This document shows, piece by piece, positions 13,898 to 30,135 of a stretch of DNA of 32,156 nt. The notes beneath the pieces were generated by a model. It worked only from the letters and a program-made list of their open reading frames with translations, made no database searches and was not told the origin of the DNA. The first letter of the stretch is position 1; the number at the start of each line of letters is the position of its first letter. A program made the translations under genes and the position numbers. Origin of the DNA: Verrucomicrobiota bacterium (lineage in GTDB: Bacteria; Verrucomicrobiota; Verrucomicrobiia; Opitutales; UBA953); contig JAPLTV010000119.1 of the NCBI GenBank assembly GCA_026397955.1, forward strand, positions 1 through 32,156. Reading direction: 5' to 3'.

Positions 13898-13910
13898 GGG
13901 AAGATACATA

Positions 13911-13934
13911 GGGACAGGGACGGGGACAGGGACA
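13911..13934 (-). repeat. Phased hexamer array upstream of the DUF6797-type gene (4 units)
   Basis: On the plus strand the four consecutive units are GGGACA, GGGACG, GGGACA and GGGACA. Read toward the gene on the minus strand they are (T/C)GTCCC units ending 13 nt before the ATG at 13897. Four GGG runs with three-base spacers meet the standard G-quadruplex pattern on the plus strand, which is the template strand for this gene. Confidence 0.9.
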
Positions 13935-13971
13935 GAAAAAAGAAAGGGTCGGAGTCCACAGACCCCGACCC
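13935..13971 (-). terminator. Intrinsic terminator after the NPCBM/cytochrome gene
   Basis: In the minus-strand transcript an 11-bp stem (13961-13971 with 13946-13956) encloses a four-base loop (13957-13960) and is followed by TTTCTTTTTTC (13945-13935). The one imperfect pair is G-U in the minus-strand RNA but would be A-C in a plus-strand RNA, which supports the minus orientation. It should end the transcript of the 1050-aa gene before the DUF6797-type gene. Confidence 0.85.
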
Positions 13972-13981
13972 AATTTCAATT

Positions 13982-14011
13982 GGCCCTAGCCCGGGCCCTG
14001 ACCCGAGCCCT
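13982..14011. repeat. Degenerate phased hexamer array downstream of the NPCBM/cytochrome gene (5 units)
   Basis: On the plus strand the units are GGCCCT, AGCCCG, GGCCCT, GACCCG and AGCCCT, all with CCC at positions 3-5. The minus strand therefore has five GGG runs with three-base spacers, a G-quadruplex-type pattern. It begins 3 bp after the stop codon of the 1050-aa gene, inside its 3' untranslated region and before the terminator. Unlike the other arrays, its G-rich strand is the same sense as the flanking transcripts. Confidence 0.8.
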
Positions 14012-14014
14012 AAA

Positions 14015-17000
14015 TCACAGACTACGCAGGTAGGCGGCAAGGTCAGCGACACCCTGCTCCGTCAGACCCATCTGGGCCGGCGTGAACATGAGCGAACGGT
14101 CGAGATGCTTCTCTTCCTTGATACGGTTGCGGGGAATCGACTGCACGAGGCCGCCCATGGACTTGATCATCAGCGGATCGCCCGAGGACAGCACCATGCC
14201 GGTGATGACCATGCCGTCGTCGAGCACCACGCGCGTGCCCTCGAAGCCGTGCGAGATGTTGTTGGACGGCTGCGAGATGTTCAGCACGAGGGTCTCGAGC
14301 GACTGCTGCTTGGCGTAGGTCGTGAGGTCGGGGCCGAAGTCGATGCCTTTGCCATCGAACTTGTGGCAAGCCTGACAGACGGCCGAAACGGCCTTACCGC
14401 GGGCGGCATCGCCCTTGAGCGCGGCGATGACCTCAACGGAGGCGAGCGCCTTGGAGCCAGCCGGTTCAGGAGGCAGGTCGGAGCCGACGAGCTTGGCGGC
14501 CGAAGCGTCGCCCCCATGGGCTTTCACAATGGCGTCGACGTCGAAGGCCTTCCAGAGGCTAGCCTTGCGATTACCGATCCACCATTTGGCGAGGTCGGCC
14601 AGAGCGAACTTCTTGTTCAGCGAAAGCTCGACCATCGTGCCGGCGGCTTCGGCGCTGCGCGTGAAGGCCAGCGTGGTGAGGTCGCGCTTGAGCTCGTTCT
14701 CGTTCAGCTTGCCGGAGAGCAGGCGGGCGCGGACGTCGCGGACGGAGGAAGCCGGGTGCAGGCGCCAGGTCAGCCAGGCATAAGCCGGCGTCCATTCGAG
14801 CGCGGGCTTGACCATGACCTTGGCGATGGCGGCATGAACTTGGGCCTCGCGGTCTGTGGAACCGAGGCCGATGGCCTCGAGGTAAGCGCGGTCCTGTCCG
14901 TCGAACTGCTGGGCGATCGTCACAAGCGTGGCGACGGCGGCCGGGGTCTTGAAATCACGCAACGCAATCGCGACCTCGCGACGCACGGCGGCGGACTTGT
15001 CCTTGGCCATGGATTCGCAGAGCGAGAAGACGTCGCGATCGGCGGCGCGGAGGGCGCGGAAGGCCACGAGGCGTCGGGTATCGTCCGCGGAAGCGAGTTC
15101 CTTGCGGGCGAGTGCGGAGCCCTTGTCACCCAGCTGCGCGAGCAGCCAGACGGCCCGGGATGAGACGTAAGGATTCGCGTCGGACAACAGGGCGGCGACA
15201 TCGTCGGCGACCTTGTCGCCAGCGGCCTTGAGGCGGTTGAAGCCACCGGCACGGACGTTCGGCGCCGGGCTGCGCAGCGCGGCGAGCTGTCCGGCTACGG
15301 TGGTGAGATCAATCTTGGGCATGACCGACTTGAAGCCCTTCGGAGCGATTCGGTAGATGGTACCGGACAGGCTGTTGTCGCGGGTGCCGTGACCGCCCAC
15401 GCCGGGGTCGAACCAGTCGGCGACATAGATCGCGCCGTCAGGGCCGACGCAGACGTCGGAGGGGCGGAACTTGGTCTTCAGGAGGCCGGTGGCCTTGCCG
15501 CCGAGGAAGTCGGATCCGGCCCACTCCTTCTCCTTATTGGACGTCAGGAAGTCGAAGCGCTCGAGCTTCATGCCGGCGCCATCAGGCTTGGGGAGGTAAC
15601 CGAAGACGACATTCTTGCCAGCCTCGCAGGCAAGGAGCAGGCCGTTCCACTTCGGGTCGAGCGCGCCATTCTCGTAGAAGGCCACGCCGGTCGGCGAGCC
15701 GCCGCCGTAGACGTCGCCGGCAGGCATGGTGCCGGGGTCATCCTGACGCCATTCGGCGACCGGAGTCTCCTGGCCGGGGCGCTTATCGGCACCCCAGGAG
15801 CGCTGGCCGTCGGCCGAAGCGAAACCGGCGTTGCCTCCTTCCATGACCAGAGTCACGCGGCAGGCGGGCGGATCGTCGTTGTCGCTCTGGTACATGTCGC
15901 CCAGCGAGTTGATAGACTGCTCGAAGCTGTTGCGGTAATTGTGGCCGACGATGCGGGCGTGGGTGCCGTCGCTGTTCATGCGCACGGAGAAGCCACCGAC
16001 CCAGACATTGCCGTCATCGCTGCGCAGACCGGCCACCTTCTGGGCATCCACGGCCTGCTTGGTGAACTCACCATGGTTATAGGGGCTGCCGATACGGAAG
16101 GTCTTGCCGGACCTGTCGGTGAACTGCGCGCAGGTGTTGCCCTGATTAAAGTTCCACTTGCCGTCGGGACCGAAGGTCGCGCTGTGGAGCGAGTGGTCAT
16201 GGTTGCGGCCATTGAAGCCGGTGAGCAGGACTTCGCGCTTGTCGACCTTGGGATCGTAGACGCCGTCGCCGTTAACGTCGGTGTAGACGATCAGGTCCGG
16301 CGGCTGGGAGACGACGATCTTGCCGTCGATGTGCGCCACGCCGAGCGGCGAGACGAGATTGTCATCCTGGGTGAAGACCGTGACCTTGTCGGCTTTGCCG
16401 GCGCCGGTCGTGTCTTCAAGGACCACGATCCGGTCGCCTTCCGGACGGCGGCCTTTCTTGCCGCGGTAGTTGACGCCTTCGGCGACATACATCCGGCCGC
16501 GTTCGTCGAAATCGATGTTTGTCGGATTGAAGATCTGCGGCGAAGTGGCCCAGACCGTGACCTCGAAACCTTCGGGTACCGTGAAGAGTTCGGCCGGGAC
16601 GAGCGTAGGTCCGCCTTCGAAATCGACCGGCTTGTATTTCTCCGGACGGGTCGTGAAGACCGCGAACTTCACGTCGGCCGAACTGGCCTTGCCGCCACGG
16701 ATGGCGCCACCGTCGTCGATGCCGACCTTGGCGCGGAAGGACTTCGCCGGACCAGGCAGATCAAAGGCGATGAAGGAGCTGGCATGGGTGCCGATGCCGC
16801 GGGCGTAAGTCTGGCCGGCGATCTTGAGCGGCTTGCCGTCGTAGTTCTTGCCGATCCGGCTCGTCCCGAGCGACTCAGCTTCCTTCCACTTGAGTTTGGT
16901 GAGGTCAACTACCGTGCCGTCCGCCAAGACGACTTCGGGCTCGATCCAATTCGACCAGTCGCAGGCGTTGCCGTCCATTTCAGCAACCACCAGGTAGAGT

Positions 17001-17167
17001 TGCTTCGAGCCACTAAGCTCGGCCGTCAGCTCGACCAGGCGCTGCTTGTCCTTGGCATACAAGACGGGCGTTTCGGCGACAGGCTTAGGAGCGGCGGCGG
17101 AAGCCAGCGCTGCGAAGCCAAGAAGGGTCAAGAAGGAGGCATTGGCCATACGGGGTACGAAGGACAT
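14015..17167 (-). CDS. PVC-type haem-binding dehydrogenase: NPCBM, propeller, HEAT, cytochrome c (1050 aa)
   Basis: Large exported redox protein. After a signal peptide (ATG at 17167; an in-frame ATG at 17149 gives a tighter signal, MANASFLTLLGFAALASAAA) comes an NPCBM-like sugar-binding domain at about 45-165 (YARGIGTHASSFIAFDL). A 'PVC membrane-bound dehydrogenase' propeller follows at about 185-610 (NPTNIDFDERGRMYVAEG; ASRS-free but with GPDGAIYVADWFDPG), then HEAT-like helical repeats at about 620-880, and a C-terminal cytochrome c/haem-binding domain with CQACH at 931-935. The layout suggests sugar binding or oxidation at the propeller with electron transfer to the haem; the substrate is unknown. 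It is divergent from the operon at 17338 and shares a 170-bp promoter region with it. It ends at a hexamer array and an intrinsic terminator. Confidence 0.9.
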   Translation of the reverse strand: MSFVPRMANASFLTLLGFAALASAAAPKPVAETPVLYAKDKQRLVELTAELSGSKQLYLVVAEMDGNACDWSNWIEPEVVLADGTVVDLTKLKWKEAESLGTSRIGKNYDGKPLKIAGQTYARGIGTHASSFIAFDLPGPAKSFRAKVGIDDGGAIRGGKASSADVKFAVFTTRPEKYKPVDFEGGPTLVPAELFTVPEGFEVTVWATSPQIFNPTNIDFDERGRMYVAEGVNYRGKKGRRPEGDRIVVLEDTTGAGKADKVTVFTQDDNLVSPLGVAHIDGKIVVSQPPDLIVYTDVNGDGVYDPKVDKREVLLTGFNGRNHDHSLHSATFGPDGKWNFNQGNTCAQFTDRSGKTFRIGSPYNHGEFTKQAVDAQKVAGLRSDDGNVWVGGFSVRMNSDGTHARIVGHNYRNSFEQSINSLGDMYQSDNDDPPACRVTLVMEGGNAGFASADGQRSWGADKRPGQETPVAEWRQDDPGTMPAGDVYGGGSPTGVAFYENGALDPKWNGLLLACEAGKNVVFGYLPKPDGAGMKLERFDFLTSNKEKEWAGSDFLGGKATGLLKTKFRPSDVCVGPDGAIYVADWFDPGVGGHGTRDNSLSGTIYRIAPKGFKSVMPKIDLTTVAGQLAALRSPAPNVRAGGFNRLKAAGDKVADDVAALLSDANPYVSSRAVWLLAQLGDKGSALARKELASADDTRRLVAFRALRAADRDVFSLCESMAKDKSAAVRREVAIALRDFKTPAAVATLVTIAQQFDGQDRAYLEAIGLGSTDREAQVHAAIAKVMVKPALEWTPAYAWLTWRLHPASSVRDVRARLLSGKLNENELKRDLTTLAFTRSAEAAGTMVELSLNKKFALADLAKWWIGNRKASLWKAFDVDAIVKAHGGDASAAKLVGSDLPPEPAGSKALASVEVIAALKGDAARGKAVSAVCQACHKFDGKGIDFGPDLTTYAKQQSLETLVLNISQPSNNISHGFEGTRVVLDDGMVITGMVLSSGDPLMIKSMGGLVQSIPRNRIKEEKHLDRSLMFTPAQMGLTEQGVADLAAYLRSL

Positions 17168-17337
17168 ATTAGGTCAGGGGTGTGCCCCATAGACACCGCC
17201 TTTGGCCGACGGTTCAAACCCTAACCACGTCGTTATCCGCCCATCGGCTCGAAAACCGCACGGACGGCTTTACATCCTAATGACAGCCAACACGTTTTAG
17301 GAACCAAGGGCACCCCGCCCTGTCCTATCCTTTTCCG
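17168..17337. other. Divergent intergenic region (170 bp)
   Basis: This gap must carry promoters for the 1050-aa dehydrogenase (minus) and the four-gene operon (plus). A small GGGG-TGTG-CCCC dyad at 17177-17188 lies just before the minus-strand gene. The last 30 bases before the plus-strand ATG are C/T-rich. I see no box pair good enough to call a promoter and no RNA gene. Confidence 0.5.
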
Positions 17338-20308
17338 ATGTCTTTCCGGTATCTCTTTGGCCCCCTTTTCCTAGCCCTCTCGGCTTCCGCCGCGGAGATG
17401 GCTGCTCCCCCGACGGCCGCTCAGATCGAGTTCTTCGAAAAGGAGGTCCGCCCGGTCCTCGCCGATAATTGCTATAAGTGCCACGGACCCAAGAAACAGA
17501 AGTCCCGTCCAGACTCCCGCGACGCCCGCCCTCGCTCCGGTCGAAGAAGCCAAGGTCCGGCAGCCGCTCGATCGCTTCGTGCTCGCGAAACTGAAGACCG
17601 CCGGTCTCGACTTCAATCCCGAGGCGCCGCGCGAAGTCATCGTCCGTCGCCTCACGCTCGCCCTCTGGGGTTTCAATCCTTCCGCCGAGGAAATCTCCGC
17701 CTACGTCTCCGACAAGGATGCACAGGCGACCGAGAAACTGGTCGACCGCCTGCTCGCCGCGCCGGCCTTTGGTGAACGCTGGGCCCGCCACTGGCTCGAC
17801 GTCGCCCGCTACTCCGACACGAAGGGCTATGTCTTTCAGGAAGAGCGCCGTTACCCCTACGCCTACACCTACCGCGACTGGGTGGTGAACGCCTTCAACC
17901 AGGACCTGCCTTACGACCAGTTCCTGCGCCTGCAGATCGCCGCCGACCAGATCGCCAAGGACCCCGAGAACAACCGTGACCTCGCTGCGCTCGGCTTCCT
18001 GACGCTGGGCCGCCGCTTCCTCAACAGCACCCCGGATATCATCGATGATCGTATCGACGTCGTCATGCGTGGCACCCAAGGCATGACGATGGCCTGCGCA
18101 CGCTGCCACGACCACAAGTTCGACCCACTGCCGACGTCCGAATACTACTCGCTCTACGCGATCTTCAATTCGAGCCAGGAGCCGAAGGAGCTTCCGCCGC
18201 TTAAGCCATTCGCCCGCACGAAGGAGACCGACGAGTTCGACGCCGAGCTCGCCAGTCGCCAGAAGAAGCTCGACGACTTCATCGACAGCCGACGTGAACT
18301 ATCCTTCGGCCCGACCAAGATTGCCGACTATCTCGCACTGATGCTCCGCGCGGCAAAAGAACCTAACTTCAATTACACGCAGGAAGCCAAGCGCACCAAC
18401 CTCTACCCGACGGTGCTTAATGGCTGGCAGCATGTGCTAACGAAGAAGCTGAACGACAAGGACCCAGTCTGGGGAGGATGGTATCAGCTTAAGGACACCC
18501 CCGACGACCAGTTCGCCGCCAAGTATGCCGCGCTGATCGCCAAACCTGAACAATTCCAGGACGCACTCCTCCGGGCCGAGTTGCAGAAGAAGACGCCGAA
18601 GAAGTTCAGCGAGCTCACCGCCGCCTACGCTGGGATCCTCGCTGAAGCGCACAAGCCTGATAAGAATACCATCGTCGCTTGGAAAGCTTGGCGTGACCTG
18701 GTCGAAGCTTCTAACGGCCCGATCGCCGTGACGGCCGCCTCACTGATTCCTGCGTACAACGTCGCTGACCGCAACACGCGCAACAACCTCGAGATCCAGG
18801 TCGTCGGCTTCAAGGCCACGAGCCCCAAGAGCCCGCCCCACGCAATGGTGCTCCTGGACAAACCCACGGCGGTCAAAGGCGTCATCTTCGTCCGCGGCAG
18901 CGCCTCCCGACCAGGCAAGACCGTCCCGCGCCAATTCCCGGCCGTCCTGACCGATGGTAAGGTCAAGGAATTCACCGAAGGCAGTGGCCGCCTCGACATG
19001 GCCAACGCCATCGCCAGCAAATCCAATCCGCTGACGGCCCGCGTGATGGCCAATCGCATCTGGAACGAACTCATCGGTCGCAGCCTGGTCGAGACCCCGA
19101 GCGACTACGGCGTGCGCACGCCGCTCCCGAAGAACCCCGAGCTCCTCGAATACCTAGCCTCGTCCTTCATGAAGGACGAATGGTCGATGAAGCGGCTCAT
19201 CCGCTCCATCGTCCTCTCCCGCACCTTCCTGCAGACGGTCGACGTGCGCCCCGAAGGCTTGGCCAAGGATCCCGACAATGACCTGAGCTGGCGCGCCCAA
19301 CGCCGTCGCCTCGACTTTGAGGCCATGCGCGACAGTATGCTGCGCGTCGCCGGAAGCCTGGATGCCGCCAAGATCGGCGGCCAGCCGTTCAATCTCGAAG
19401 CGAATTTCTCTGAGCCGCGCCGCACACTCTACGGCAGCATCGATCGCCAGAATCTTCCGGCGTTCTTCCGTACGTTCGACTTCGCCAATCCGGACTATCA
19501 CGTCCCGAAGCGCAACCAGACCACCACGCCGCAGCAGGCGCTCTGGATGATGAACCATCCGTTCGCGCGCACCCAAGCCGAAGCCCTCGTCAGCAAGGTC
19601 GCTGCCCTGCCCTCGCCCGAAGCGAAAGTAAAGGCCCTCTACCTTTCCGTGCTCGGTCGTTCGCCGAACAAGAATGAGCTCGCCCTCGCCCTGGACTATC
19701 TCCGCGAAGCCGAACTGGCGCCCGCCCCGGCGAGCTGGCGTAATGGCTACGGTGGCTGGAATCCGGCGACCAAGACCGTCGCGTTTACTGAGATGAAGGT
19801 CCAGACCAAGGATCGTATCTCGCCCTCCGATAAAGTGCCGGACAAGGAGTTCGCCCATACCTTCCTCACAGCCAAGGGCGGACACCCGGGCGACAAGACC
19901 GACGCCACTGCCGTCATCCGCCGCTGGACAGCCGGTAGCGCCGGCAAGTATCGCATCGAAGGCACCCTCGCCGTCAGCAGCAAGGTGAGCGATGGCGTCC
20001 GTGCCCGTATCGTCACCGCCCGCAAAGGCATCCTCTCCGAAGTCGTGACCAAGGGCGGTGCCTCTTTGTCCGTGGACCTCGCGGAAGTCGAACTCGCCGC
20101 CGGTGAGAGCATCGACTTCATCGCCGACAACTTCCTCGGTTCCAATAGCGACAGCTTCTCTTGGTCGCCGGTCATCAAAGATGCCAAGACGGGAGAGATC
20201 CTCACCTCCGCCGCCGGTGAGTTCGGCAAGAAGCCCGAACGGCAGTCAGCCCTCTCCACCTTCGCCCAGGTCCTTCTCACCAGCAACGAATTCATCTTCG
20301 CCGACTAA
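17338..20308 (+). pseudogene. PSCyt1-DUF1549-DUF1553 cytochrome protein, pair 2, broken in the haem domain
   Basis: The first frame (from 17338) encodes a signal peptide and the start of PSCyt1, with CYKCH at residues 45-49 followed by GPKKQKSRPDSRDA. Family coding then resumes in another frame at about 17527 (PALAPVEEAKVRQPLDRFVLAKL) and runs to 20308 through DUF1549 (CARCHDHKFDPLP) and DUF1553 (PLTARVMANRIW; end LLTSNEF). Intact relatives in this window have about 100-140 residues between CxxCH and the equivalent of QPLDRF; here there are about 25. Roughly 75-115 residues, including the expected distal Met segment, are therefore missing, with a frame change. A GTG at 17579 could restart translation but would lack the signal peptide. 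A beta-rich insertion near the C-terminus (about 19735-20210) precedes the final helix. The stop overlaps the next ATG (TAATG). It may be a decayed gene or an assembly deletion. Confidence 0.8.
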
Positions 20309-21747
20309 TGAACCATCTCGAACCCCTCTCCCTCGGCTCCCGCCGCGAGTTCCTCCGCCGGGTCGGCATGGGCCTCGGCGGCGTCGCCATGGCCTCGCTC
20401 CTGCAGCAGGAACTCCGTGGCACCGAGATCAAGGTGGACCCGCTCCACCCCCTCGCCGCCCGTAAGCCCCCGCTACCCTGCAAGGCCAAGCGCGTCATCC
20501 ACATCTTCGCCAACGGCGGCGCCTCTCAGGTCGACACCTTCGACCGCAAGGTCGCCCTGGATAAGTACCACGGTAAGACGCTGCCCGGCGATTACATCGC
20601 TACCGAGCGCAAGACCGGCGCCGCCTACCGCTCGCCGTTCACCTGGAAACGTTACGGTAAGAGTGGCCTCGAGGTCAGCGAGCTTTTCGACAAGACCGCC
20701 CAGCATGCCGATGATCTCTGTGTCATCCGCTCGATGAAGGCAGACGTGTCCAACCACGAGCCTTCGCTACTCCTGATGAACTGTGGCGAAGCCCGCCAAG
20801 TCCGCCCCTCGATGGGCTCGTGGGTTACCTATGGTCTCGGCACGGAAAACGAAAACCTCCCTGGTTTCATGACGCTCTGCCCCGGTGGCTTCCCCATCCA
20901 AGAGACCCAGAACTGGCAGTGCGGTTTCCTCCCCGGCGTCTACCAAGGCAACTACGTCGACACCTCGAAGCGCTCCGTCGAAGAGCTGATCGAGAACATC
21001 CGCAACTTCGGCCTTTCCCGTCCGGCCCAGCGCCAGCAGCTCGACCTGCTGGCCAAACTCAACGCGGCCCACCAGTCCGTCCGTCCGCAGGACGCCGCCC
21101 TCGAGGCCCGCGCCCAGTCCTTCGAGATGGCCTACCGCATGCAGCTCGAGGCCACCGACGCTTTCGACATCGGCCGCGAATCCGAGAAGACCCGCGAGAT
21201 GTACGGCGACACCACCCTGGGCCGCCAGTTCCTCATCGCCCGTCGCCTCGCTGAACGCGGCGTCCGCTTCATCCAGCTCTGGCATGGCGCCGGCCAGCCG
21301 TGGGACAGCCACGACGATATCGAGAAGAACCATAAGCGTCTCGCAATGGAAGCCGACCAGCCCATCGCGGCTCTACTCACCGACCTTAAGCGTCTCGGCA
21401 TGCTCGACGAGACCCTCGTCATCTGGGGCGGCGAATTCGGCCGCACCCCGACCGTCGAACTTCCGACCCCTGGCTCCAACGCCGGCAAGATCAACGGCCG
21501 CGACCACAACAGCCACGGCTTCACGATGTGGATGGCCGGCGGCGGCGTGAAGGCCGGCACGGTCTACGGCGAAACCGACGAATTCGGCTACAAGTCCGTC
21601 AAGGATGTCGTTCACGTGCATGACCTGCATGCGACCATTATGAGGCTCCTCGGCTTCAACCACGAAGAGTTTACCTTCCGCAGCTCCGGACGCGACTATC
21701 GCCTCACCGACGTCCACGGGAAAATCGTGCAACAGATCATCGCCTAA
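20308..21747 (+). CDS. DUF1501 protein with Tat signal, pair 2 (479 aa)
   Basis: Tat-exported DUF1501 protein. SRREFLRRVGMGLGG (Arg12-Arg13) is a near-ideal twin-arginine motif. Family blocks present are VIHIFANGGASQVDTFDRK near residue 60, WDSHDDIEKNHKRLAMEADQ near 331, GEFGRTP near 374-380, and GRDHNSHGFTMWMAGGG shortly after. It is intact although its cytochrome partner upstream is broken, so any dependence on that partner would leave it orphaned or served by another copy. The start is fixed by the TAATG overlap with the upstream stop, and the stop overlaps the next start the same way, giving tight translational coupling across three genes. Confidence 0.92.
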   Translation: MNHLEPLSLGSRREFLRRVGMGLGGVAMASLLQQELRGTEIKVDPLHPLAARKPPLPCKAKRVIHIFANGGASQVDTFDRKVALDKYHGKTLPGDYIATERKTGAAYRSPFTWKRYGKSGLEVSELFDKTAQHADDLCVIRSMKADVSNHEPSLLLMNCGEARQVRPSMGSWVTYGLGTENENLPGFMTLCPGGFPIQETQNWQCGFLPGVYQGNYVDTSKRSVEELIENIRNFGLSRPAQRQQLDLLAKLNAAHQSVRPQDAALEARAQSFEMAYRMQLEATDAFDIGRESEKTREMYGDTTLGRQFLIARRLAERGVRFIQLWHGAGQPWDSHDDIEKNHKRLAMEADQPIAALLTDLKRLGMLDETLVIWGGEFGRTPTVELPTPGSNAGKINGRDHNSHGFTMWMAGGGVKAGTVYGETDEFGYKSVKDVVHVHDLHATIMRLLGFNHEEFTFRSSGRDYRLTDVHGKIVQQIIA

Positions 21748-22592
21748 TGCGACTTCTCGTCCTGCTGCTGAGCCTCGCTGCCACGTCAGCGGCGGCGATC
21801 GAGACCAAGGTCGTTAAGGATATCCCTTATAAGGACGACGTCATATCCCTGACGCCCTACGAGCAGGAACGCTGCAAACTCGACCTGACCGTCCCCGCCG
21901 GAGCCAAGGGCTTCGCCACTTACGTGTGGTTCTACGGCGGAGGCATGAAGAACGGCGCCAAGGATCTGCGTACGGAATATTGCACCGAAATCCGTGAAAG
22001 CCTCGCCCAAGCTGGCGTCGCGGTCGTCACGCCGGACTATCGTCTGAGCCCGAAGGTCAAATACCCCGCCTACGTCGACGATGCCGCCGCGGCCTTCGCC
22101 TGGACGGTGAAGCACATCGCCGAACACGGCGGCGACCCACGCAAAGTCTTCATCGGCGGCCACTCCGCAGGCGCCACCCTCGCCTTGCTCGTCGGCATGG
22201 ACCCGGACCGGCTCAAGCCCCACGGGCTCACCCTCGGCTCCGTGGCCGGCATCGCCCAGGTCAGCGCCCAAGTGCTGACCCACTACACGATTCGCGAAGA
22301 ACGTAATCAGCCTCGCTACGCCATCACCTGCGACGAAGCCGCCCCGGCGTTCTATATCCGGAAGACCCTGCCCCCGATCCTCACGATCTACGCGCAGAAC
22401 GACATGCTCAGCCGCGCAGAAGAGAACCAATTCTTCGTGACCACCCTCAAGGCCGCAGGCCATGCCGAGAACTATTCCCTGCGCGTCGATGATCGCGACC
22501 ACGGCACGGTCGGACATAATATCCGCAACCTCGACGACCCCGCCCGCCTCGCGATTCTGAACTTCATCGCGAAGCAGTCCGCCAGCCGCTGA
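21747..22592 (+). CDS. Secreted alpha/beta hydrolase, esterase-like (281 aa)
   Basis: Exported carboxylesterase-like hydrolase of the Abhydrolase_3/BD-FAE type. Signal peptide MRLLVLLLSLAATSAAA. The oxyanion region WFYGGGMKNGA occupies the place of the usual HGGG. The nucleophile elbow is GHSAG (Ser140), with Asp219 (AQNDM) and His252 (DRDHGT) as the likely rest of the triad. VVTPDYRLSPKVKYPA is a characteristic family block. Secreted members commonly remove acyl groups from carbohydrates or small esters; the substrate here is not determined. It sits third in the operon, coupled by TAATG to the DUF1501 gene and 48 bp before the FAD oxidoreductase, which fits a de-esterification step in glycan processing. 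Confidence 0.87.
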   Translation: MRLLVLLLSLAATSAAAIETKVVKDIPYKDDVISLTPYEQERCKLDLTVPAGAKGFATYVWFYGGGMKNGAKDLRTEYCTEIRESLAQAGVAVVTPDYRLSPKVKYPAYVDDAAAAFAWTVKHIAEHGGDPRKVFIGGHSAGATLALLVGMDPDRLKPHGLTLGSVAGIAQVSAQVLTHYTIREERNQPRYAITCDEAAPAFYIRKTLPPILTIYAQNDMLSRAEENQFFVTTLKAAGHAENYSLRVDDRDHGTVGHNIRNLDDPARLAILNFIAKQSASR

Positions 22593-22608
22593 CGCCCGGG
22601 GGTGGCAA

Positions 22609-22632
22609 ACCCCTACCCCTACCCCTACCCCT
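22609..22632 (+). repeat. Four perfect ACCCCT hexamers just before the FAD oxidoreductase start
   Basis: ACCCCT occurs four times in perfect tandem, followed by CTTCAGTC and the ATG at 22641. The complementary strand has four GGGG runs, a G-quadruplex-type pattern on the template strand. If a GTG at 22602 were used as start, the array would be translated as repeating Pro-Tyr, which is unlikely as a signal-peptide N-terminus. Confidence 0.93.
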
Positions 22633-22640
22633 CTTCAGTC

Positions 22641-24731
22641 ATGCTCCTCCGCTTATCCCTCCTCTGTCTCTTCACCTTACGCCTTAGCGCGGTCGAGTCG
22701 TACGACGTCGTCGTCTATGGGGGCACCGCCGCCGGCGTCATCGCCGCCGTCCAAGCCAAGAAGATGGGAAAGTCCGTGGTCATCGTTGGACCCGACAAGC
22801 ACCTCGGCGGCTTGAGCAGCGGCGGCCTCGGCTTCACGGACAGCGGCGATAAATCCGTCATCGGCGGCCTATCCCGCAACTTCTACCACCGCGTCTGGCA
22901 ATATTATCAGAAGCCGGAAACCTGGGTGCACCAGAAGCGCTACGACTTCGGCAACAAGGGCCAGGGCACCGTGGCGATGGACCAGAATGAGCGCACGATG
23001 TGGATCTTCGAGCCCAGCGTCGCTGAGAAGGTCTTCGAGGACTACGTTAAGGAATTCGCTATCCCAGTGCTTCGCGACGAATGGCTAGACCGCGCCCAAG
23101 GCGTCCGCCTCGCCGACGGCCGCATCGCGGCGATCACGATGCTCTCGGGCAAGTCTTTCGAGGGTAAGATGTTCATCGACGCCACGTACGAAGGCGACCT
23201 CATGGCCGCCGCGGGCACCAGCTATCACGTCGGACGGGAAGCCAACGCGACCTACGGCGAGAAACACAACGGCTCACAGGTCGGCGTCCTGCACCATCGC
23301 CACCACTTCGGCGTACTCAAGTCGCCCATCGACCCCTACGTCATCCCCGGCGACCCCAAGAGCGGCGTCATCGCCCGCGTCTCGACCGAAAAGCCGGCAC
23401 CCAAGGGCGAAGCCGACCGACGCCTCCAGGCCTATTGCTTCCGCATGTGCCTCACGAACGTGCCCGAGAACCGCGTCCCGTTCACGGCTCCCCCCGGCTA
23501 CGACCCTAAACAATATGAAGTCCTCGCCCGCGCCTACGCGGCCGGCTGGAAGGAGACGTTCGGTAAGTTCGACCTGATCCCGAACGGCAAGACCGACACG
23601 AACAACCACGGCGGCTTCTCTTTCGATAATATCGGCTTCAACTACGACTACCCCGAAGCGAGCTACGAACGTCGCCAGGAAATCATCAAGGAGCATGAAA
23701 CCTATCAGAAGGGCCTGCTCTACTTCATCTGCACCGACCCGCGTGTCCCGGCCGACGTCCGCGAGAAGATGAACACCTGGGGCCTGCCTAAGGACGAGTT
23801 CAAGGACAACGGTAACTGGTCGCACCAAATCTACGTCCGCGAAGCCCGCCGCATGGTCGGCGCTTTCGTGATGACCGAGAACGAACTGACGAAGGTGAAG
23901 CCGACCCCGGAGTCGGTCGGCATGGGTTCCTACATGATCGATTCGCACAACACCCAGCGCTACATTACCCCCGAAGGCTCCGTGCAGAACGAAGGCGATA
24001 TCGGCGTCTCTCCGCGCGGCCCTTACGAGATCGCCTATGGTTCGCTGGTCCCGAAGAAAGGCCAGGCCGCTAACCTTCTCGTGCCGGTTGCCTGCAGCGC
24101 CACGCACATCGCCTACGGCTCGATCCGCATGGAGCCCGTCTTCATGATCCTCGGCCAGTCCGCCGCCACCGCCGCCGTCATGGCGATCGACGGCAAGATC
24201 GCCGTCCAGGACGTCCCCTACGCCGCCCTCAAGGCCCGCCTGCTCGCCGACGGCCAGGTGCTCAGTAAGGCGGTCGACCTCTCCAAATACCCAGCTGAAT
24301 CAGACGACCACGCCTCCGCGCCTCGCCTGCCCGGGATCACGGTCGATGATGCCGACGCCAAACTTTCGGGTGATTGGACCGAGAGCCAGGCCGGCAAAGG
24401 CTTCGTCGGTGAAGGCTACCGCCATGACGGCAAAGGTACGAAAGGCCCAATGTCCGCCACCTTCTCCACCAAACTCCCCAAAGCCGGCAAGTTTGAGGTC
24501 TTCCTCACGATTGTCCCGAACGTAAATCGGGCCACCAACGCCAAGGTCCGGATCATCCATGCCGGCGGCCAGACCGACCGCGAAGTGAACCTCGCCAAAG
24601 GACCCGCCGACCGACTGGTCTCGCTCGGCACCTATGAATTTTCGGACAAGTCGGATGCCCAAGTCATCGTCAGTAACGAGGGCGCCAACGGCTACGTGGT
24701 CATTGATGCAATCAACTGGCAGGCCCGCTGA
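22641..24731 (+). CDS. Secreted FAD-dependent oxidoreductase with golvesin-like C-terminal domain (696 aa)
   Basis: Exported flavoprotein of the FAD_oxidored group found next to polysaccharide-degradation genes. Signal peptide MLLRLSLLCLFTLRLSAVE. The FAD-binding loop is VVVYGGTAAGVIAA (residues 23-36), followed by GGLSSGGLGFTDSG. The central part holds FIDATYEGDLMAAAG, typical of this group. From about residue 565 to the end there is a beta-sandwich resembling the golvesin/xanthan-lyase-type binding domain (GKFEVFLTIVPNVNRATNAKVRI; ending NGYVVIDAINW). The substrate is unknown. The ATG at 22641 is preferred over a GTG at 22602 because the hydrophobic signal begins there. It is last in the operon; a short CCCC-TGA-GGGG dyad after it is too weak to call a terminator. 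Confidence 0.88.
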   Translation: MLLRLSLLCLFTLRLSAVESYDVVVYGGTAAGVIAAVQAKKMGKSVVIVGPDKHLGGLSSGGLGFTDSGDKSVIGGLSRNFYHRVWQYYQKPETWVHQKRYDFGNKGQGTVAMDQNERTMWIFEPSVAEKVFEDYVKEFAIPVLRDEWLDRAQGVRLADGRIAAITMLSGKSFEGKMFIDATYEGDLMAAAGTSYHVGREANATYGEKHNGSQVGVLHHRHHFGVLKSPIDPYVIPGDPKSGVIARVSTEKPAPKGEADRRLQAYCFRMCLTNVPENRVPFTAPPGYDPKQYEVLARAYAAGWKETFGKFDLIPNGKTDTNNHGGFSFDNIGFNYDYPEASYERRQEIIKEHETYQKGLLYFICTDPRVPADVREKMNTWGLPKDEFKDNGNWSHQIYVREARRMVGAFVMTENELTKVKPTPESVGMGSYMIDSHNTQRYITPEGSVQNEGDIGVSPRGPYEIAYGSLVPKKGQAANLLVPVACSATHIAYGSIRMEPVFMILGQSAATAAVMAIDGKIAVQDVPYAALKARLLADGQVLSKAVDLSKYPAESDDHASAPRLPGITVDDADAKLSGDWTESQAGKGFVGEGYRHDGKGTKGPMSATFSTKLPKAGKFEVFLTIVPNVNRATNAKVRIIHAGGQTDREVNLAKGPADRLVSLGTYEFSDKSDAQVIVSNEGANGYVVIDAINWQAR

Positions 24732-24793
24732 GGCCTTTTCCTTAGAAATCCATTGGAACCCCTGAGGGGCAGGGTTGTCATAAAGACTTCCCC

Positions 24794-27700
24794 ATGCGCG
24801 TCCTGCCTTTAGTCGCCCCCTTCCTAGTTGTCGGCCTCCTCGGAGCCGCCGAATCCACTGACACGGTCCGCTTCAATCGCGACATCCGACCGATCATGTC
24901 GGACACGTGCTTCCACTGTCACGGCTTCGACCCGAAGTCCCGCAAGGGCTCCCTACGACTCGACATCCGCGACGACGCGCTAAAGGCCGGCAAGAGTGGC
25001 GCCATCGCGATCGTCCCAGGCAAGCCCGATGAGAGCGAAGTCATCAAGCGTCTCTTCACCAAGGACGAAGATGACGTGATGCCGAACAAGGAGTCGCACA
25101 AGACCCTCACAGCCGCCCAGAAAGATCTCTTCCGCCGCTGGGTCGCGCAAGGTGCGGTCTACGAACCCCACTGGGCCTACAAGGCACTGGAAGCCCCGGT
25201 CGTCCCCGCCCTGCCCACCGGAGGCAAGAACCCGATCGACGCCTTCATCGGCGCCAAGCTCGCCGAGAAGAAGATCCGCCCGTCCGCCGAAGCCTCCAAG
25301 GAGCGCCTGCTGCGCCGCGCCTCGCTCGACCTGACCGGCTTGCCTCCCACCCCCGCCGAGACGGCGGCCTTCCTCGCCGACGGCTCGGCCGATGCTTACG
25401 AGAAACAGGTCGACCGACTCCTGGCCTCGCCGCGCTTCGGCGAGCGCATGGCGGTCTGGTGGCTGGACGTCGCCCGCTTCGCCGACACGGTCGGCTACCA
25501 CGGCGACCAGAATCAGCGCATCTTCCCTTACCGCGATTACGTCATCAACGCCTTTAATACCAACAAACCGTTCGACGTGTTCACGCGCGAGCAGCTTGCC
25601 GGCGACCTCCTGCCTAACCCCACCGAAGAACAGCTCGTCGCGAGCGGCTATAATCGCCTGAATATGATGACCCGTGAAGGCGGCGCCCAGGTGAAGGAAT
25701 ACCTCGCGAAGTACGGCGCCGAACGTGTGCGCTCCGTCTCCAACGCCTGGCTGGGCAGCACCTTCGGCTGCGCCGAGTGCCATGACCATAAGTTCGACCC
25801 GATTAAGTCCGCCGACTTCTACACCCTGCAGGCGTTCTTCGCCGACGTGAAGCAGTGGGGCGTCTACGCGGACTACAATTACACCCCGGAACCCGAACTC
25901 AAGGGCGTGGGCAATGACCATCCGTTCTACCCCGAAGTCCGTACCAAGAACGCCTACCGCACGAAGAAGGACGCCGAATTCCGCGCCGAGCTCGCATCGC
26001 TCTACGCTAAGACGTTGGCCGAGCAGAAGGACCAGACCGACTTCTCCGCTTGGCAGAAAGACATCGCCGCCTTCCTGTCCGAACATCCCACCGGACTGCT
26101 CTCCCCGGCTGGCACTTTCTTCCTGAAGGCCGCACCCCCGGTCGCACCAGCGAAGATGGCCGCCAAGGCCCCAGCGAAGAACACCGACGCAACTTCGGTC
26201 GCCAAAAAGCCGGCCGCCAAGAAACCGGCCGCACCTGCCCCGGTCGCCTTCGCGGCTGGTGCCACCATCAAGATGCCCAAGGGCGTCGCTAAAGGCGAAG
26301 ACTTCGCCATCACTTTGAATACCGGCGCTACGCCGATTGCTTCCGTCCGTATCGATATACCCAAGGGCTCGATTCCGGCTGACTCCGCCGCGAACATCAC
26401 GGCTCGCTTCGGTATCGTCGACGCCAAGGGCAAGGAACGTCCGGTCGCTTTCCACCTGGCCGACGCCACCCATCGCGAACCTCGTTATAACAGCACCTTT
26501 GAGCTGACCGATATCAATGCGGGCTGGTCCTTGAAGATGCCGGACGCCGACGTGCATGCGGTCTGGCTCCTGGACACCCCGGTCACGACCAAGGCAGATG
26601 AGAAATTCGTGATCCACTTCGAAAGCAACGCCGCCCTGACACTCAAAGCCTCGGTCTCTCCGCTCTCCCACGATGACCCGTTGAAGGTGACCGCACCTGA
26701 AACCCTGTCCTCCCACAAGGACCCTCGCCTTACGGCTGCCACCGTCGCGCTCTTCTTGAACTCCCGCGGCACCGACCGCGCGACGCTCGAGAAGACGCGC
26801 ACCCTGACCACCACGCTCCGTCGCCAATACGACGGCTACGCCTGGTCGATGGTCACCCAAGCCACGAAACCGCTCACGGTCCGCGTGCTTCCTCGTGGCA
26901 ACTTCCTCGACGAGACTGGCCCGGTCGTACTCCCGACGACACCTTCGTTCCTGCCCGGCCTGCGCACCAGCACCGAACAGAAACGCCTAACCCGTCTCGA
27001 CCTCGCCGACTGGATCAATTCGAAAGACAATCCAATCACCGCGCGTACGGTCATGAACCGCCTCTGGCAGATCTTCCACGGCACCGGCCTCAGCGCCGGC
27101 CTGGACGACCTTGGTTCGCAAGGCGAACTGCCCTCACACCCGGAACTGCTCGAATGGCTGTCCCTGGAGTTCCGCGATAAGGGCTGGGACGTGAAGAAGA
27201 TGATCCGCCTGATGGTCACCAGCCGCACCTACCGTCAGAGCAGCAGCCTGCGCCCTGACCTGAAGGAGACCGACCCCAACAACCGTCTGCTCGCGTCGCA
27301 GAACCCGCGCCGTCTCGACGCCGAGTTCGTCCGCGACAACGCCCTCTTCGTCGCCGGACTGCTCAACATCGCGGACGTCGGCGGACCCAGCGTGAAGCCC
27401 TATCAGCCGGAAGGTTATTACGAGCCGATGCAGTTCCCCAACCGCACCTACGTCGCGAGCAAGGACTCCGACCAGTGGCGCCGCGGACTCTACATGCACT
27501 GGCAGCGCATGTACCTACACCCGATGCTGATCAATTTCGACGCCCCCTCGCGCGATGAGTGCACCGCGCTCCGCAGCTACAGCAACACCCCGCAACAGGC
27601 CCTGACGCTCCTCAACGACCCGACGTTCGTGGAAGCCGCCCGCGCCATGGCCGCCCGTCTCCTCGTCTTGCCCGCCGGCGATCGCCTGGGCCAGGGCTTC

Positions 27701-27922
27701 CGCCTCGCGATGGGCCGCGATATCAAGCCTGCCGAGCGCCCGTCGCTGGAGAAGCTGATCGCCGCCCAGACGGCTTATTATAAGACCAATCCGGCCGAAG
27801 CCGCCAAGCTGATCAAGGTCGGCTTCAGCCAGTCGCTCGCCGCCGACCCGGCCGAACTCGCCGCCTGGACACAGGCGTGCCGCGTCCTCCTTAACTCCCA
27901 CGAAGCGATCACCCGCTACTAA
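24794..27922 (+). CDS. PSCyt1-DUF1549-DUF1553 planctomycete-type cytochrome protein, pair 3 (1042 aa)
   Basis: Intact exported cytochrome-like protein. Signal peptide at 1-19; PSCyt1 with CFHCH at 39-43 and a probable distal Met96 (DVMP); DUF1549 at about 145-350 with a second CxxCH, CAECHDHKFDP, at 326-336. A low-complexity Ala/Lys/Pro linker (AKKPAAKKPAAPAP) lies near residues 470-485 and is followed by a beta-sandwich-like insertion to about 620. DUF1553 spans about 735-1035 and ends LLNSHEAITRY rather than the usual LNSNEF. The linker and insertion are absent from pair 1 and probably form an extra binding module. The DUF1501 partner begins 4 bp after the stop. The leader ACTTCCCC precedes the ATG without a Shine-Dalgarno sequence. 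Confidence 0.93.
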   Translation: MRVLPLVAPFLVVGLLGAAESTDTVRFNRDIRPIMSDTCFHCHGFDPKSRKGSLRLDIRDDALKAGKSGAIAIVPGKPDESEVIKRLFTKDEDDVMPNKESHKTLTAAQKDLFRRWVAQGAVYEPHWAYKALEAPVVPALPTGGKNPIDAFIGAKLAEKKIRPSAEASKERLLRRASLDLTGLPPTPAETAAFLADGSADAYEKQVDRLLASPRFGERMAVWWLDVARFADTVGYHGDQNQRIFPYRDYVINAFNTNKPFDVFTREQLAGDLLPNPTEEQLVASGYNRLNMMTREGGAQVKEYLAKYGAERVRSVSNAWLGSTFGCAECHDHKFDPIKSADFYTLQAFFADVKQWGVYADYNYTPEPELKGVGNDHPFYPEVRTKNAYRTKKDAEFRAELASLYAKTLAEQKDQTDFSAWQKDIAAFLSEHPTGLLSPAGTFFLKAAPPVAPAKMAAKAPAKNTDATSVAKKPAAKKPAAPAPVAFAAGATIKMPKGVAKGEDFAITLNTGATPIASVRIDIPKGSIPADSAANITARFGIVDAKGKERPVAFHLADATHREPRYNSTFELTDINAGWSLKMPDADVHAVWLLDTPVTTKADEKFVIHFESNAALTLKASVSPLSHDDPLKVTAPETLSSHKDPRLTAATVALFLNSRGTDRATLEKTRTLTTTLRRQYDGYAWSMVTQATKPLTVRVLPRGNFLDETGPVVLPTTPSFLPGLRTSTEQKRLTRLDLADWINSKDNPITARTVMNRLWQIFHGTGLSAGLDDLGSQGELPSHPELLEWLSLEFRDKGWDVKKMIRLMVTSRTYRQSSSLRPDLKETDPNNRLLASQNPRRLDAEFVRDNALFVAGLLNIADVGGPSVKPYQPEGYYEPMQFPNRTYVASKDSDQWRRGLYMHWQRMYLHPMLINFDAPSRDECTALRSYSNTPQQALTLLNDPTFVEAARAMAARLLVLPAGDRLGQGFRLAMGRDIKPAERPSLEKLIAAQTAYYKTNPAEAAKLIKVGFSQSLAADPAELAAWTQACRVLLNSHEAITRY

Positions 27923-27926
27923 GAAC

Positions 27927-29363
27927 ATGCGCCCTTACGACCCAGTCGCCCACGCCCTGTCGATCAATCGACGGAGCTTCCTCACCAAGAGCGCCTACGG
28001 CCTCGGCAGCGCGGCGTTCGCCATGCTCGCCGCGAAGTCTGGCTTCAGCGACCTACACGCCGCCCAGTTCTCCAAGGGCGTGCTCCAGAAGCCTGATCTC
28101 CCCGTCAAAGCCAAGCGCGTCATCTTCCTTTGCATGGCCGGCGGTCCTCCGCACCTTGAACTCTTCGACAACAAGCCGGTCCTGAAGAGCCTCCACGGCC
28201 AGGCTTTCCCGGAGTCGTTCACCAAGGGCAAGCAGATCGCCCAGCTCCAGAACACCGTCCTTAAGGCCCGCGGCGGCTCCTTCGAATTCAAGAAATGGGG
28301 CAAGTCCGGCATGGAACTGACCGACATCTTCCCGCACATCGGTGGGGTCGCCGACGACCTCTGCGTCGTCCGCTCGCTGAAGACCGAGCAGATCAACCAC
28401 GACACCGCCCATGCCTTTTTCAACACGGGCTCGATTATCAAGGGCCGCCCGAGCATGGGCTCCTGGCTCCTCTACGGCCTCGGCTCCGAGACCGAGAACC
28501 TGCCGGGCTACATCGTCCTGACCTCCGCCGGCCGCACTGGCCAGCAGCCGATTTCCTCACGCCAGTGGTCCAGCGGCGTGCTGCCGAGCAAATACCAGGG
28601 CATCCAGTTCCAATCCAAGGGCGAAGCGGTCCATTACATCGGCAACCCCGAAGGCGTCTGCCAAAGCACCCAGCGCCAGGTCATCGATGAGATCCGCCGC
28701 CTTAACGGCCAGCTCGCCGAAGAGACCGTCGACCCCGAGATCGCCACGCGCGTCGCCCAATACGAGATGGCCTTCAAGATGCAGTCGAGCGTCCCCGAGC
28801 TGCTCGACTTCAAGAGCGAGTCCGCGAAGACGCTCGAAAACTACGGTATCAAGGAAGTCGGCGACGGCTCTTTCGCCTCGAATTGCCTCATGGCCCGCCG
28901 CCTCGCCGAACGTGGCGTGCGTATGATTCAGCTCTACCACCGCGCCTGGGATCTCCACGGCGGTCTCGACAACGGGATGAAGATGGGCGCCGAAGACGTC
29001 GACAAGGCCACCGGCGCCCTCATCCGCGACCTCAAGGAGCGCGGCATGCTCGACGATACGCTCATCCTCTGGGGCGGAGAATTCGGCCGCACGCCGATGG
29101 GCCAAGGCACCGGGCGCGACCACCATATCGCCGGCTACTCAGTCTTCCTCGCCGGTGGCGGCATCAAGGCTGGAACGACCTACGGCGCCACCGACGAGCT
29201 CGGGTATAACGCCGTCGAGAACGTCGTCGATGTCCATGACCTGCACGCCACGATGCTTGCCCTGATGGGCATCGATCACCATCGCCTGAACGTGAAGTAC
29301 CAAGGCCTCGACGTCCGCCTGACGGGCGTCGCTGGCAAGGTGGTCAAGGGCATCATGGCCTAG
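27927..29363 (+). CDS. DUF1501 protein with Tat signal, pair 3 (478 aa)
   Basis: Tat-exported DUF1501 protein. The motif INRRSFLTKSAYGLGSAAFA (Arg15-Arg16) matches the S/T-RRxFLK consensus well. Family blocks are VIFLCMAGGPPHLELFDNKP near residue 65, GEFGRTP near 383-389 and GRDHHIAGYSVFLAGGG following it. Compared with pairs 1 and 2, the first block has HLELFD in place of HIDTFD/QVDTFD, so one acidic position differs, and the post-GRDH block is less conserved. It is probably co-translated with the cytochrome gene 4 bp upstream. A 9-bp hairpin follows the stop. Confidence 0.92.
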   Translation: MRPYDPVAHALSINRRSFLTKSAYGLGSAAFAMLAAKSGFSDLHAAQFSKGVLQKPDLPVKAKRVIFLCMAGGPPHLELFDNKPVLKSLHGQAFPESFTKGKQIAQLQNTVLKARGGSFEFKKWGKSGMELTDIFPHIGGVADDLCVVRSLKTEQINHDTAHAFFNTGSIIKGRPSMGSWLLYGLGSETENLPGYIVLTSAGRTGQQPISSRQWSSGVLPSKYQGIQFQSKGEAVHYIGNPEGVCQSTQRQVIDEIRRLNGQLAEETVDPEIATRVAQYEMAFKMQSSVPELLDFKSESAKTLENYGIKEVGDGSFASNCLMARRLAERGVRMIQLYHRAWDLHGGLDNGMKMGAEDVDKATGALIRDLKERGMLDDTLILWGGEFGRTPMGQGTGRDHHIAGYSVFLAGGGIKAGTTYGATDELGYNAVENVVDVHDLHATMLALMGIDHHRLNVKYQGLDVRLTGVAGKVVKGIMA

Positions 29364-29377
29364 CGGTAAACGACACT

Positions 29378-29403
29378 TAAACGCCGTTAAAATTCGGCGT
29401 TTA
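29378..29403 (+). terminator. Hairpin after pair 3, probable weak terminator or attenuator
   Basis: TAAACGCCG (29378-29386) and CGGCGTTTA (29395-29403) form a perfect 9-bp stem with an eight-base loop, 15 bp after the DUF1501 stop. There is no T-run beyond the final TTTA, so it may be inefficient, bidirectional or a transcript-stabilising hairpin. It leaves only 37 bp before the next gene. Confidence 0.5.
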
Positions 29404-29440
29404 GACTTCAATGGTCAGGGCGGAATCGTAAGGTCGAACC

Positions 29441-30091
29441 ATGCCCCTCCACCGCCTCACCCTGACGGCCACCCTACTGGCGTCCGCCTTCGTCAACGCC
29501 TTCGCCGCCGATGCGATCACGCCGACCGCGAAGACCGAACTCTTCAACGGCAAAGACACCGTCGGCTGGGCCATCTACCCCGAAGCCGGGAAAGATTCCT
29601 GGTCGATCAAGGATGGCATCCTTGCCTGCACAGGTAAGCCAAGCGGCTTCCTCCGCACGGAGAAGAGCTACAAGCAGTATCGCTTCACGGTCGAGTGGCG
29701 CTTCACAAAGACCGGCAATACCGGCGTGGTCGTTCACATGGCGCCCCCCGATGCGATCTGGCCGAAGAGCATTGAATGCCAAGGTATGCACAAGAACCAG
29801 GGCGACTTCTATTTCTGGAATGGCGCCACGCTCACAGGTGGCACCGAGCTCAAGGACAAGAAGAGCGGCAAGATCCGCGGCTACCGTCTGGGCAAGCAGG
29901 CCGATGCCGAAAAGCCGGCCGGCGAATGGAATACCTTCACCACGGTCTGCGACGGCAATACGGTCACGATCCTCGTCAACGGCAAGGAAGTGAACAAGGC
30001 CACCGGCACGAATCTCTCTGAAGGCTTCATCGGCCTCCAGGTCGAAGGCGGCGCCTTCGAAGTCAAGCGCTGCACCCTCGAACCCCTCTAA
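29441..30091 (+). CDS. Secreted DUF1080 protein, 3-keto-disaccharide hydrolase family (216 aa)
   Basis: Exported single-domain protein of the DUF1080/3-keto-disaccharide hydrolase family (PF06439), a concanavalin-like beta-jelly-roll. Some characterised members cleave 3-keto-glycosides made by sugar 3-oxidation; others may only bind carbohydrates. Signal peptide MPLHRLTLTATLLASAFVNAFAA. The family opening ELFNGKDTVGWAIY is at 33-46, then DSWSIKDGILACTGKPSGFL, a core strand WRFTKTGNTGVVVHM, AGEWNTFTTVCDGNTVTILVNG, and a closing GFIGLQVEGGAFEVKRCTLEPL-type block. The domain fills the whole mature protein, the usual length for the family. It is 44 bp upstream of a tandem-domain relative in the same direction. 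Confidence 0.9.
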   Translation: MPLHRLTLTATLLASAFVNAFAADAITPTAKTELFNGKDTVGWAIYPEAGKDSWSIKDGILACTGKPSGFLRTEKSYKQYRFTVEWRFTKTGNTGVVVHMAPPDAIWPKSIECQGMHKNQGDFYFWNGATLTGGTELKDKKSGKIRGYRLGKQADAEKPAGEWNTFTTVCDGNTVTILVNGKEVNKATGTNLSEGFIGLQVEGGAFEVKRCTLEPL

Positions 30092-30096
30092 ATAAC

Positions 30097-30126
30097 AACC
30101 CCACCCCTAGCCCCACCCCTATCCCT
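30097..30126 (+). repeat. Degenerate phased hexamer array before the tandem DUF1080 gene (5 units)
   Basis: Units AACCCC, ACCCCT, AGCCCC, ACCCCT and ATCCCT follow each other in strict six-base phase and fill the gap between two DUF1080 genes. CTTTAGTCT and the ATG at 30136 come next, nearly the same leader as after the array at 22609. The complementary strand has five GGG/GGGG runs. Confidence 0.9.
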
Positions 30127-30135
30127 CTTTAGTCT

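Follow-up and report, generated by a model that had tools for sequence, protein, structure and literature searches.

Four phased arrays in three gaps

The stretch analyzed here, which we call the window, is a contig of 32,156 nucleotides from a Verrucomicrobiota bacterium (Opitutales, UBA953; JAPLTV010000119.1 of assembly GCA_026397955.1), and our subject is a set of short tandem arrays of degenerate hexamers that occupy gaps between its genes. An earlier note on this DNA had pointed to four such arrays in strict six-base phase, and an exact scan of the whole window for runs of four or more CCC or GGG tracts spaced at period 6 recovers these four, with four to five CCC tracts each, and none besides. 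They are housed in three gaps. The first (13898-14014, 117 bp) is flanked by two minus-strand genes and holds two arrays together. One, at 13911-13931, reads on the minus strand as four CCC tracts in CCCTGT/CCCCGT units (GGG on the plus strand) and sits on the 5' side of the minus-strand gene 11630-13897, whose longest open reading frame reaches 13909. The other, at 13984-14010, reads on the minus strand as five GGG tracts (CCC on the plus strand) and begins 4 nt past the stop of the minus-strand gene 14015-17149. Between them, on the minus strand at 13946-13971, is a terminator-like hairpin of 11 pairs followed by TTTCTTTTTT. The remaining two gaps both lie in a run of plus-strand genes, and their arrays are on the plus strand. 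Gap 22593-22640 (48 bp) holds array 22610-22631, made of three CCCCTA units and CCCC, with the ATG of an FAD-dependent oxidoreductase gene (22641) 9 bp downstream; gap 30092-30135 (44 bp) holds array 30099-30125, with five CCC tracts, 7 bp past a stop and 10 bp ahead of the ATG at 30136, between two genes for proteins with a 3-keto-disaccharide hydrolase domain.

The proteins encoded nearby include DUF6797/DUF7133 and DUF7133/NPCBM/cytochrome c proteins, an alpha/beta hydrolase, the FAD oxidoreductase and the two 3-keto-disaccharide hydrolase-domain proteins. The closest relatives in named genomes of the protein encoded at 14015-17149 are mostly from uncultured Opitutae, Opitutales or Verrucomicrobia, including Opitutia bacterium UBA953. 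Searches of the window against Rfam (at the gathering score) and for tRNA genes gave no match.

Gap preference, strand rule and unit spelling

From the window's own genome (G000), a sample of 399,742 bases was examined, 28,284 of them in gaps, with genes and starts called by a simple codon-usage gene caller; its contigs were picked with knowledge of the hit list, so that array density in it is biased. At period 6, gaps contain 22 arrays and genes a single one; for each of the periods 4, 5 and 7-12 the counts are zero to two in gaps and zero to one in genes, and among periods 4 to 12 only period 6 is enriched for four phased CCC tracts. The contrast between gaps and genes is present in both parts of the sample, with five gap arrays and one gene array in contigs C25, C36 and C37 (313,986 bases), and 17 and none in C53, C33 and the window (85,756 bases). 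One explanation would be that gaps are rich in C and that the arrays arise from this composition by chance, and the gap regions upstream of genes in this genome are indeed C-rich, with C at 45% of the last six bases ahead of 210 starts that follow gaps. However, dinucleotide shuffles of the same gaps contain a mean of 0.075 arrays and a maximum of one (40 shuffles) against the 22 observed. This refutes chance C-richness, to which we assign next to no probability, and bears out the earlier note on this point.

Stretches from seven genomes of the genus, whose contigs were likewise known from hit lists rather than drawn at random, together hold 51 arrays in gaps and five in genes. The restriction to gaps proposed earlier is thus upheld, and equal frequencies in genes and gaps, the outcome named beforehand as refuting it, are clearly not the case. 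Most genomes compared are fragmentary, two of the seven samples (G050 and G048) have no gap array, and a gap of G016 with an N run of about 7.5 kb is included in the shuffle figures for that genome and left out of the later scans for unit families. With detection requiring at least four tracts, 18 of the 51 arrays have four, 24 have five, and nine have six to eight. Gaps between divergent genes hold arrays in 9 of 190 cases, tandem gaps in 23 of 573 and convergent gaps in 3 of 95.

The arrays also obey a strand rule, in that the G-rich strand leaves the gene: CCC stands ahead of starts and GGG behind stops in 43 of the 51. On the coding strand, 27 of the arrays that lie closest to a start read CCC and four read GGG; among those closest to a stop, 16 read GGG and four CCC. 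In the stretches of one genus member (G019) the rule holds for 16 of 16 arrays, none of which lies in a gene. Fifteen of the 16 G-oriented arrays nearest a stop are located 4-28 bp behind it. The preference for the last 20 bp before start codons that the earlier note expected is seen in nine of the 27 C-oriented arrays nearest a start, but one of the others lies at 21 bp and 17 lie at 49-110 bp, such that proximity to starts holds for a part of the arrays only. Shine-Dalgarno-like motifs precede 23 of the 210 G000 starts after gaps, as compared with 71 of 210 in a reverse-complement control. Given the abundance of C and the scarcity of such motifs in the gaps ahead of starts, a GGG array there could act as a structure or as a false ribosome site.

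To examine how the unit is spelled, 137 hexamer arrays (649 units) were compared, some of them taken from loci that a pattern search had selected. Their consensus reads CCCTAC; in the three free positions, T stands at 69%, A at 60% or G at 20%, and C at 54%, and we write the degenerate hexamer as CCCTRN on the C strand. This consensus differs between genomes. At unit position 5, arrays with an A majority outnumber those with a G majority by 30 to 3 in G000, and the ratio is 1 to 14 in G019 (Fisher p 2e-8), in unit samples partly picked by hits. Over whole genomes, 107 hits to a pattern of CCCTGY units throughout are found in G019 (10 for the reversed control) and two in G000, with a general 21-base pattern giving 176 hits in G019 and 172 overlapping hits in G000. 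G040 prefers G at unit position 6, and the consensus of G016, G011, G046 and G060 resembles that of G000. With such a shift, it becomes possible to test for a copying mechanism or for a reader acting in trans. In the latter case, the arrays would be rows of binding sites for a putative DNA- or RNA-binding protein that reads the unit core, with the consensus following its changing specificity; the conserved core, the free positions at fixed phase, the usual number of four to five units and the different consensus in G019 are all consistent with this. However, several unit families in one genome would require several readers, no candidate protein was found, the search covering two families, and G048, despite its rating of 99% completeness, is devoid of hits to five patterns searched. 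We consider a protein reader possible but unlikely.

The variation within arrays bears on a further proposal of the earlier note, that the arrays are unstable microsatellites, which we consider in the form of ordinary phase-variable ones that expand and contract by slippage. Orthologues of array 30099-30125 from different species representatives do vary by eye from about one to five tracts between conserved flanks, and units of the GGGAATC type are listed among variable tandem-repeat loci of Xanthomonas euvesicatoria in a table of PMC8002079. However, the units are degenerate, the type of array is itself swapped between species, and adjacent units are no more alike than under shuffling of their order, which is not what in-place slippage would produce: identical neighbors number 58 of 512 against 60.6 expected for hexamers, 10 of 160 against 15.4 for YAACCGC heptamers (20.5 if units are shuffled across the pool), and 5 of 54 against 8.7 for ATACTC units (8.0 across the pool). 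Ordinary microsatellites are hence unsupported, and we regard them as very improbable.

Facing pairs, sibling unit families and orthologous sites

Neighboring arrays in one gap face each other, with 14 pairs in the order G then C, two GG and none in the order C then G across the seven genomes. Patterns written for facing pairs have hits in 17 of 55 genomes of the genus at a spacing of 25-55 and in 29 at 56-86, for which the reversed control gives zero and two. One might suppose that the two arrays form a single RNA or DNA stem that strengthens a terminator or insulates the gap. The dominance of facing pairs agrees with this, as does the predicted RNA fold of gap 13898-14014, in which both arrays pair round the terminator hairpin (z -3.98), although this value includes the terminator itself. 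On the other hand, facing pairs occur in divergent gaps as well, where one transcript with both arms is not expected, and 21 of the 51 arrays, two of them in the window, have no facing partner; these follow the same tendency, with 13 CCC and one GGG at starts and five GGG and two CCC at stops. Moreover, arms from the same gap match no better than arms from different gaps, so that co-evolution of a stem is unsupported: complementarity is 15.7 against 15.25 permuted for 17 pairs of hexamer arms (reached by 1311 of 5000 permutations) and 17.9 against 19.0 for nine pairs of heptamer arms (4651 of 5000). A dedicated stem seems to us decidedly improbable.

Facing pairs could also be the two ends of one mobile insert. 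The first gap of the window speaks against this, as the terminator there stays while the arrays change: a hairpin like that of the window (at most five differences from the consensus) recurs in 23 of 33 related loci, round which the arrays differ or have decayed. For heptamer-flanked pairs the idea may hold, given that several such interiors, from G011, G016 and G000, are about 70-95% identical to one another along stretches of 30-318 bases. One locus (L272, G011:C32:34998-35609) has nested inverted arrays, with GCGGTTA heptamers outside and GAGTATN inside, mirrored across an interior of 458 bp that has stretches in common with other pair interiors. Separately, a palindrome, GGGGTCAGACCGCTTC...GAAGCGGTCTGACCCC, stands between the terminator and the next gene in 10 of the 33 loci behind the DUF7133 gene (L052, L054, L056, L057, L061, L062, L063, L067, L068 and L110), the window gap not being among them; it looks like a mobile REP-like element.

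Hexamers are one of several kinds of unit. When degenerate tandem arrays were sought irrespective of unit, in a scan that includes stretches picked for holding arrays, the strand rule in gaps was seen to be followed by 35 to 2 among YAACCGC heptamers, 12 to 3 among GAGTATN heptamers, 2 to 0 for two octamers, 23 to 4 with one tie among the mixed remaining families, and 53 to 10 among hexamers. Pairs in one gap that are alike in sequence are inverted in 28 cases and direct in three within the genus, and 14 against 4 in an outgroup sample (G037). The latter, from an order-mate of another family, carries in G037:C24 (L134-L143) dense gap arrays of GARNAA and AGTGAR hexamers and GGAAGCC heptamers with inverted pairs.

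The general pattern has hits in 22 of 24 genomes of the same genus, and the 13 genomes from other families of the order have 0 to 17 hits. CCCTRN arrays are found in 7 of 132 genomes of the order, namely in four of the five genus members searched and, with one to two hits, in three others; none of five genomes from other genera of the same family has a hit. The heptamer pattern is nearly confined to the genus, with hits in 5 of the 132 genomes, four of which are among the five genus members. In G048, which belongs to the genus, neither the two facing-pair patterns nor CCCTRN, CCCTGY or the heptamer pattern gave a hit, which makes it a natural comparison genome with few or no arrays. A requirement for a Y1 transposase is unsupported, as G019 (rated 99% complete) and G012, G013 and G003 (75-85%) bear arrays with no Y1_Tnp match at E 0.001. 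Reverse transcriptase is likewise not a general source of arrays, since RVT_1 is present in just 1 of 55 genomes of the genus.

At orthologous sites, which were compared among species representatives that share ancestry and form related rows, one type of array can stand in for another. The gene behind array 22610-22631 was matched in 42 of 55 genomes, giving 30 loci, in 29 of which the start is present. Read by eye, these comprise nine YAACCGC heptamer arrays (in several other species of the genus), two octamer arrays of the form CCCTCCNG, four clear hexamer arrays (the window's own genome, L188, L194 and L196), one of irregular spacing (L207), and 13 short or absent ones; L185 is taken here as heptamer and L197 as octamer, while a scripted table differs for both and counts L207 as hexamer. 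For array 30099-30125, 26 of 30 loci were usable, of which 14 have at least three phased hexamer tracts, three have octamers, and nine are short or have none. In gap 13898-14014, strict arrays of four tracts survive in 2 of 25 orthologues on each side, 3' as well as 5'. These 25 were counted out of 33 loci (from 63 fetched), leaving out L059, L071, L072, L074, L079, L093, L100 and L113, and a recount over all 33 gives the same three loci with strict arrays.

Such swaps are pertinent to the G-quadruplex pattern and the possible regulatory structure raised in the earlier note. In the form considered here, four tracts would fold as a G-quadruplex or i-motif in DNA or RNA at gene ends and would tune transcription, translation, or RNA decay. 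All four arrays of the window do fit the motif, with four GGG tracts three bases apart; their places and strands are those of G-rich repeats whose oligonucleotides fold by circular dichroism, according to Rehm et al. 2015 (PMC4692102); and the CCC positions are less variable than the free ones, as in 15 flank-anchored orthologues of array 30099-30125, the window's own genome included, bases other than the majority one fill 42 of 180 free cells and 18 of 180 CCC cells (Fisher p 0.001, indicative only, as the rows are related). As the reason for the arrays, however, the fold is weakened by the fact that four phased tracts persist in no more than 2 of 25 orthologues on each side of gap 13898-14014 and by sibling arrays without GGG that obey the strand rule, among them the GAGTATN heptamers and the YAACCGC heptamers, which have only GG and which occupy the 22610 site in 9 of 29 loci. 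The fit to the motif hence stands, and a regulatory G-quadruplex appears rather doubtful. The genus offers a natural test, with the same placement rule for GGG units and GGG-less units that are swapped at orthologous sites, and this makes the placement rule separable from the fold.

Proposed copying, filtering at gene ends and known repeat systems

We tentatively favor the hypothesis, to which we give somewhat less than an even chance, that the arrays are genus-wide degenerate repeats of gene margins, spread by copying and held in orientation by constraints at gene ends. Their spread and their likeness within a genome may be due to copying between gaps, through template switching or ectopic gene conversion, and not to in-place slippage. 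We infer this from the shift in consensus, the type swaps, and one pair of sites that shares both an array and a flank, TCTTYAGTC, ahead of two unrelated genes 7.5 kb apart. In the window, this flank is TCTTCAGTC at 22632-22640 on the plus strand, one base apart from TCTTTAGTC at 30126-30134 on the same strand, which adjoins the start codon and recurs in the same or a near form in 15 of 26 usable orthologues. G003:C43 carries the flank twice as well, at nearly the same spacing as G000. The flank was rejected as a genome-wide part of the arrays, given that G000 has three copies of CCCTCTTYAGTC, of which those in the window are the only two behind an array.

Arrays would persist where few other constraints act, and their orientation would be filtered by the function of the gene end. 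On the 5' side, this would leave a sense RNA that is C-rich, unstructured and free of Shine-Dalgarno motifs ahead of the start codon, and on the 3' side G-rich RNA would be tolerated behind the stop. In facing pairs, GGG and CCC cores could pair round the interior, and a dedicated G-quadruplex switch would not be required.

Several points weigh against this hypothesis. Copying is a deduction from sequence, and the case of the shared flank is that of one site pair. The translation filter fits the 3' side less well, for composition is unskewed there, and yet arrays stand at 16 G to 4 C. The strand rule is broken by 8 of the 51 arrays, and the window's own array 30099-30125, with a stop 7 bp and a start 10 bp away, is among the four CCC exceptions at stops. 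The other-unit arrays of G037 form inverted pairs too, but its GARNAA family is oppositely oriented, so that the strand rule is a property of families and not of all such arrays. From the CCCTAC consensus, only G019 clearly and G040 partly depart, G016, G011, G046 and G060 having that of G000. Identical adjacent hexamers (58) exceed the 43.3 expected when units are shuffled across the pool, meaning that units inside one array are somewhat alike and that some local duplication is possible. Finally, the orthologue counts come from rows that share ancestry.

A bolder idea, which we hold to be improbable though worth stating, is that a genome-wide system marks gene margins with a short word. The spelling of this word would be changeable per species (CCCTAC here, CCCTGY in G019), it would mostly face away from the marked gene, and its class would be rewritable at the same site as six, seven or eight bases. 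If so, some machinery for copying, or a reader co-evolving with the word, would recognize gene borders as such whether or not a G-quadruplex folds, and the repeats of Xanthomonas and Nostoc, which were studied for their G-quadruplex potential and, in PMC4692102, given no function, would be further instances of such marking.

Several known repeat systems invite comparison, and among the titles and abstract openings listed in a literature search that covered few subscription papers, none describes such arrays in this bacterial group. REP/BIME elements with RAYT (Y1) transposases are intergenic inverted units in many copies. They are unlike the tandem hexamers described here, whose arms lack a specific match and which give 176 pattern hits in G019, a genome without Y1_Tnp. 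The STRR heptanucleotide repeats of cyanobacteria provide a precedent for several short tandem families in one genome, but they are heptamers and not hexamers. Three heptanucleotides in Calothrix are mentioned in PMC4692102.

Direct repeats of TAACTGA in Beggiatoaceae (MacGregor 2015, PMC4679880) stand directly ahead of starts, and a translational role has been suggested for them; about 10% of repeat-bearing gaps have a Shine-Dalgarno motif, and the functions of downstream genes follow no pattern. These are heptamers with no GGG tract, searched for in exact form and present as 169 direct sets and one indirect, and the unit consensus of the arrays here is a different one.

The closest parallel is found in the G-rich heptamers of Rehm et al. 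2015 (PMC4692102), GGGAATC in Xanthomonas and GGGGA(C/T)T in Nostoc, as that paper describes them. They are intergenic tandem units, transcribed and preferentially four in number, with the G strand mostly non-coding within 50 bp ahead of starts and coding within 50 bp behind stops; they form convergent inverted pairs, 70 and 75 of them in two xanthomonads and few in Nostoc; and they carry a G-quadruplex motif, their oligonucleotides folding by circular dichroism, with no function known to the authors. The arrays of the present study are alike in their tandem GGG units in fixed phase, their free positions, their location in gaps, the strand rule, and the convergent pairs. The view of the earlier note that no named element matches is therefore not sustained, for the placement rule is the same as the one published for these heptamers, and the gap preference and strand rule were known already. 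The differences lie in the unit and its behavior. Here, it is a hexamer with three free positions and not a heptamer of GGGAATC or GGGGAYT, the consensus differs in at least one genome (CCCTGY), several unit families share gaps and swap at orthologous sites, and sibling arrays without GGG follow the strand rule too. The heptamers of Rehm et al. are under-represented between divergent genes, whereas 9 of 190 divergent gaps hold arrays here. What is new is thus the degenerate hexamer CCCTRN, its differing consensus, the swaps with heptamers and octamers, and the lack of a slippage signature. By placement the arrays are like the Rehm repeats, and they are best classed as a hexamer variant of these rather than as members by unit.

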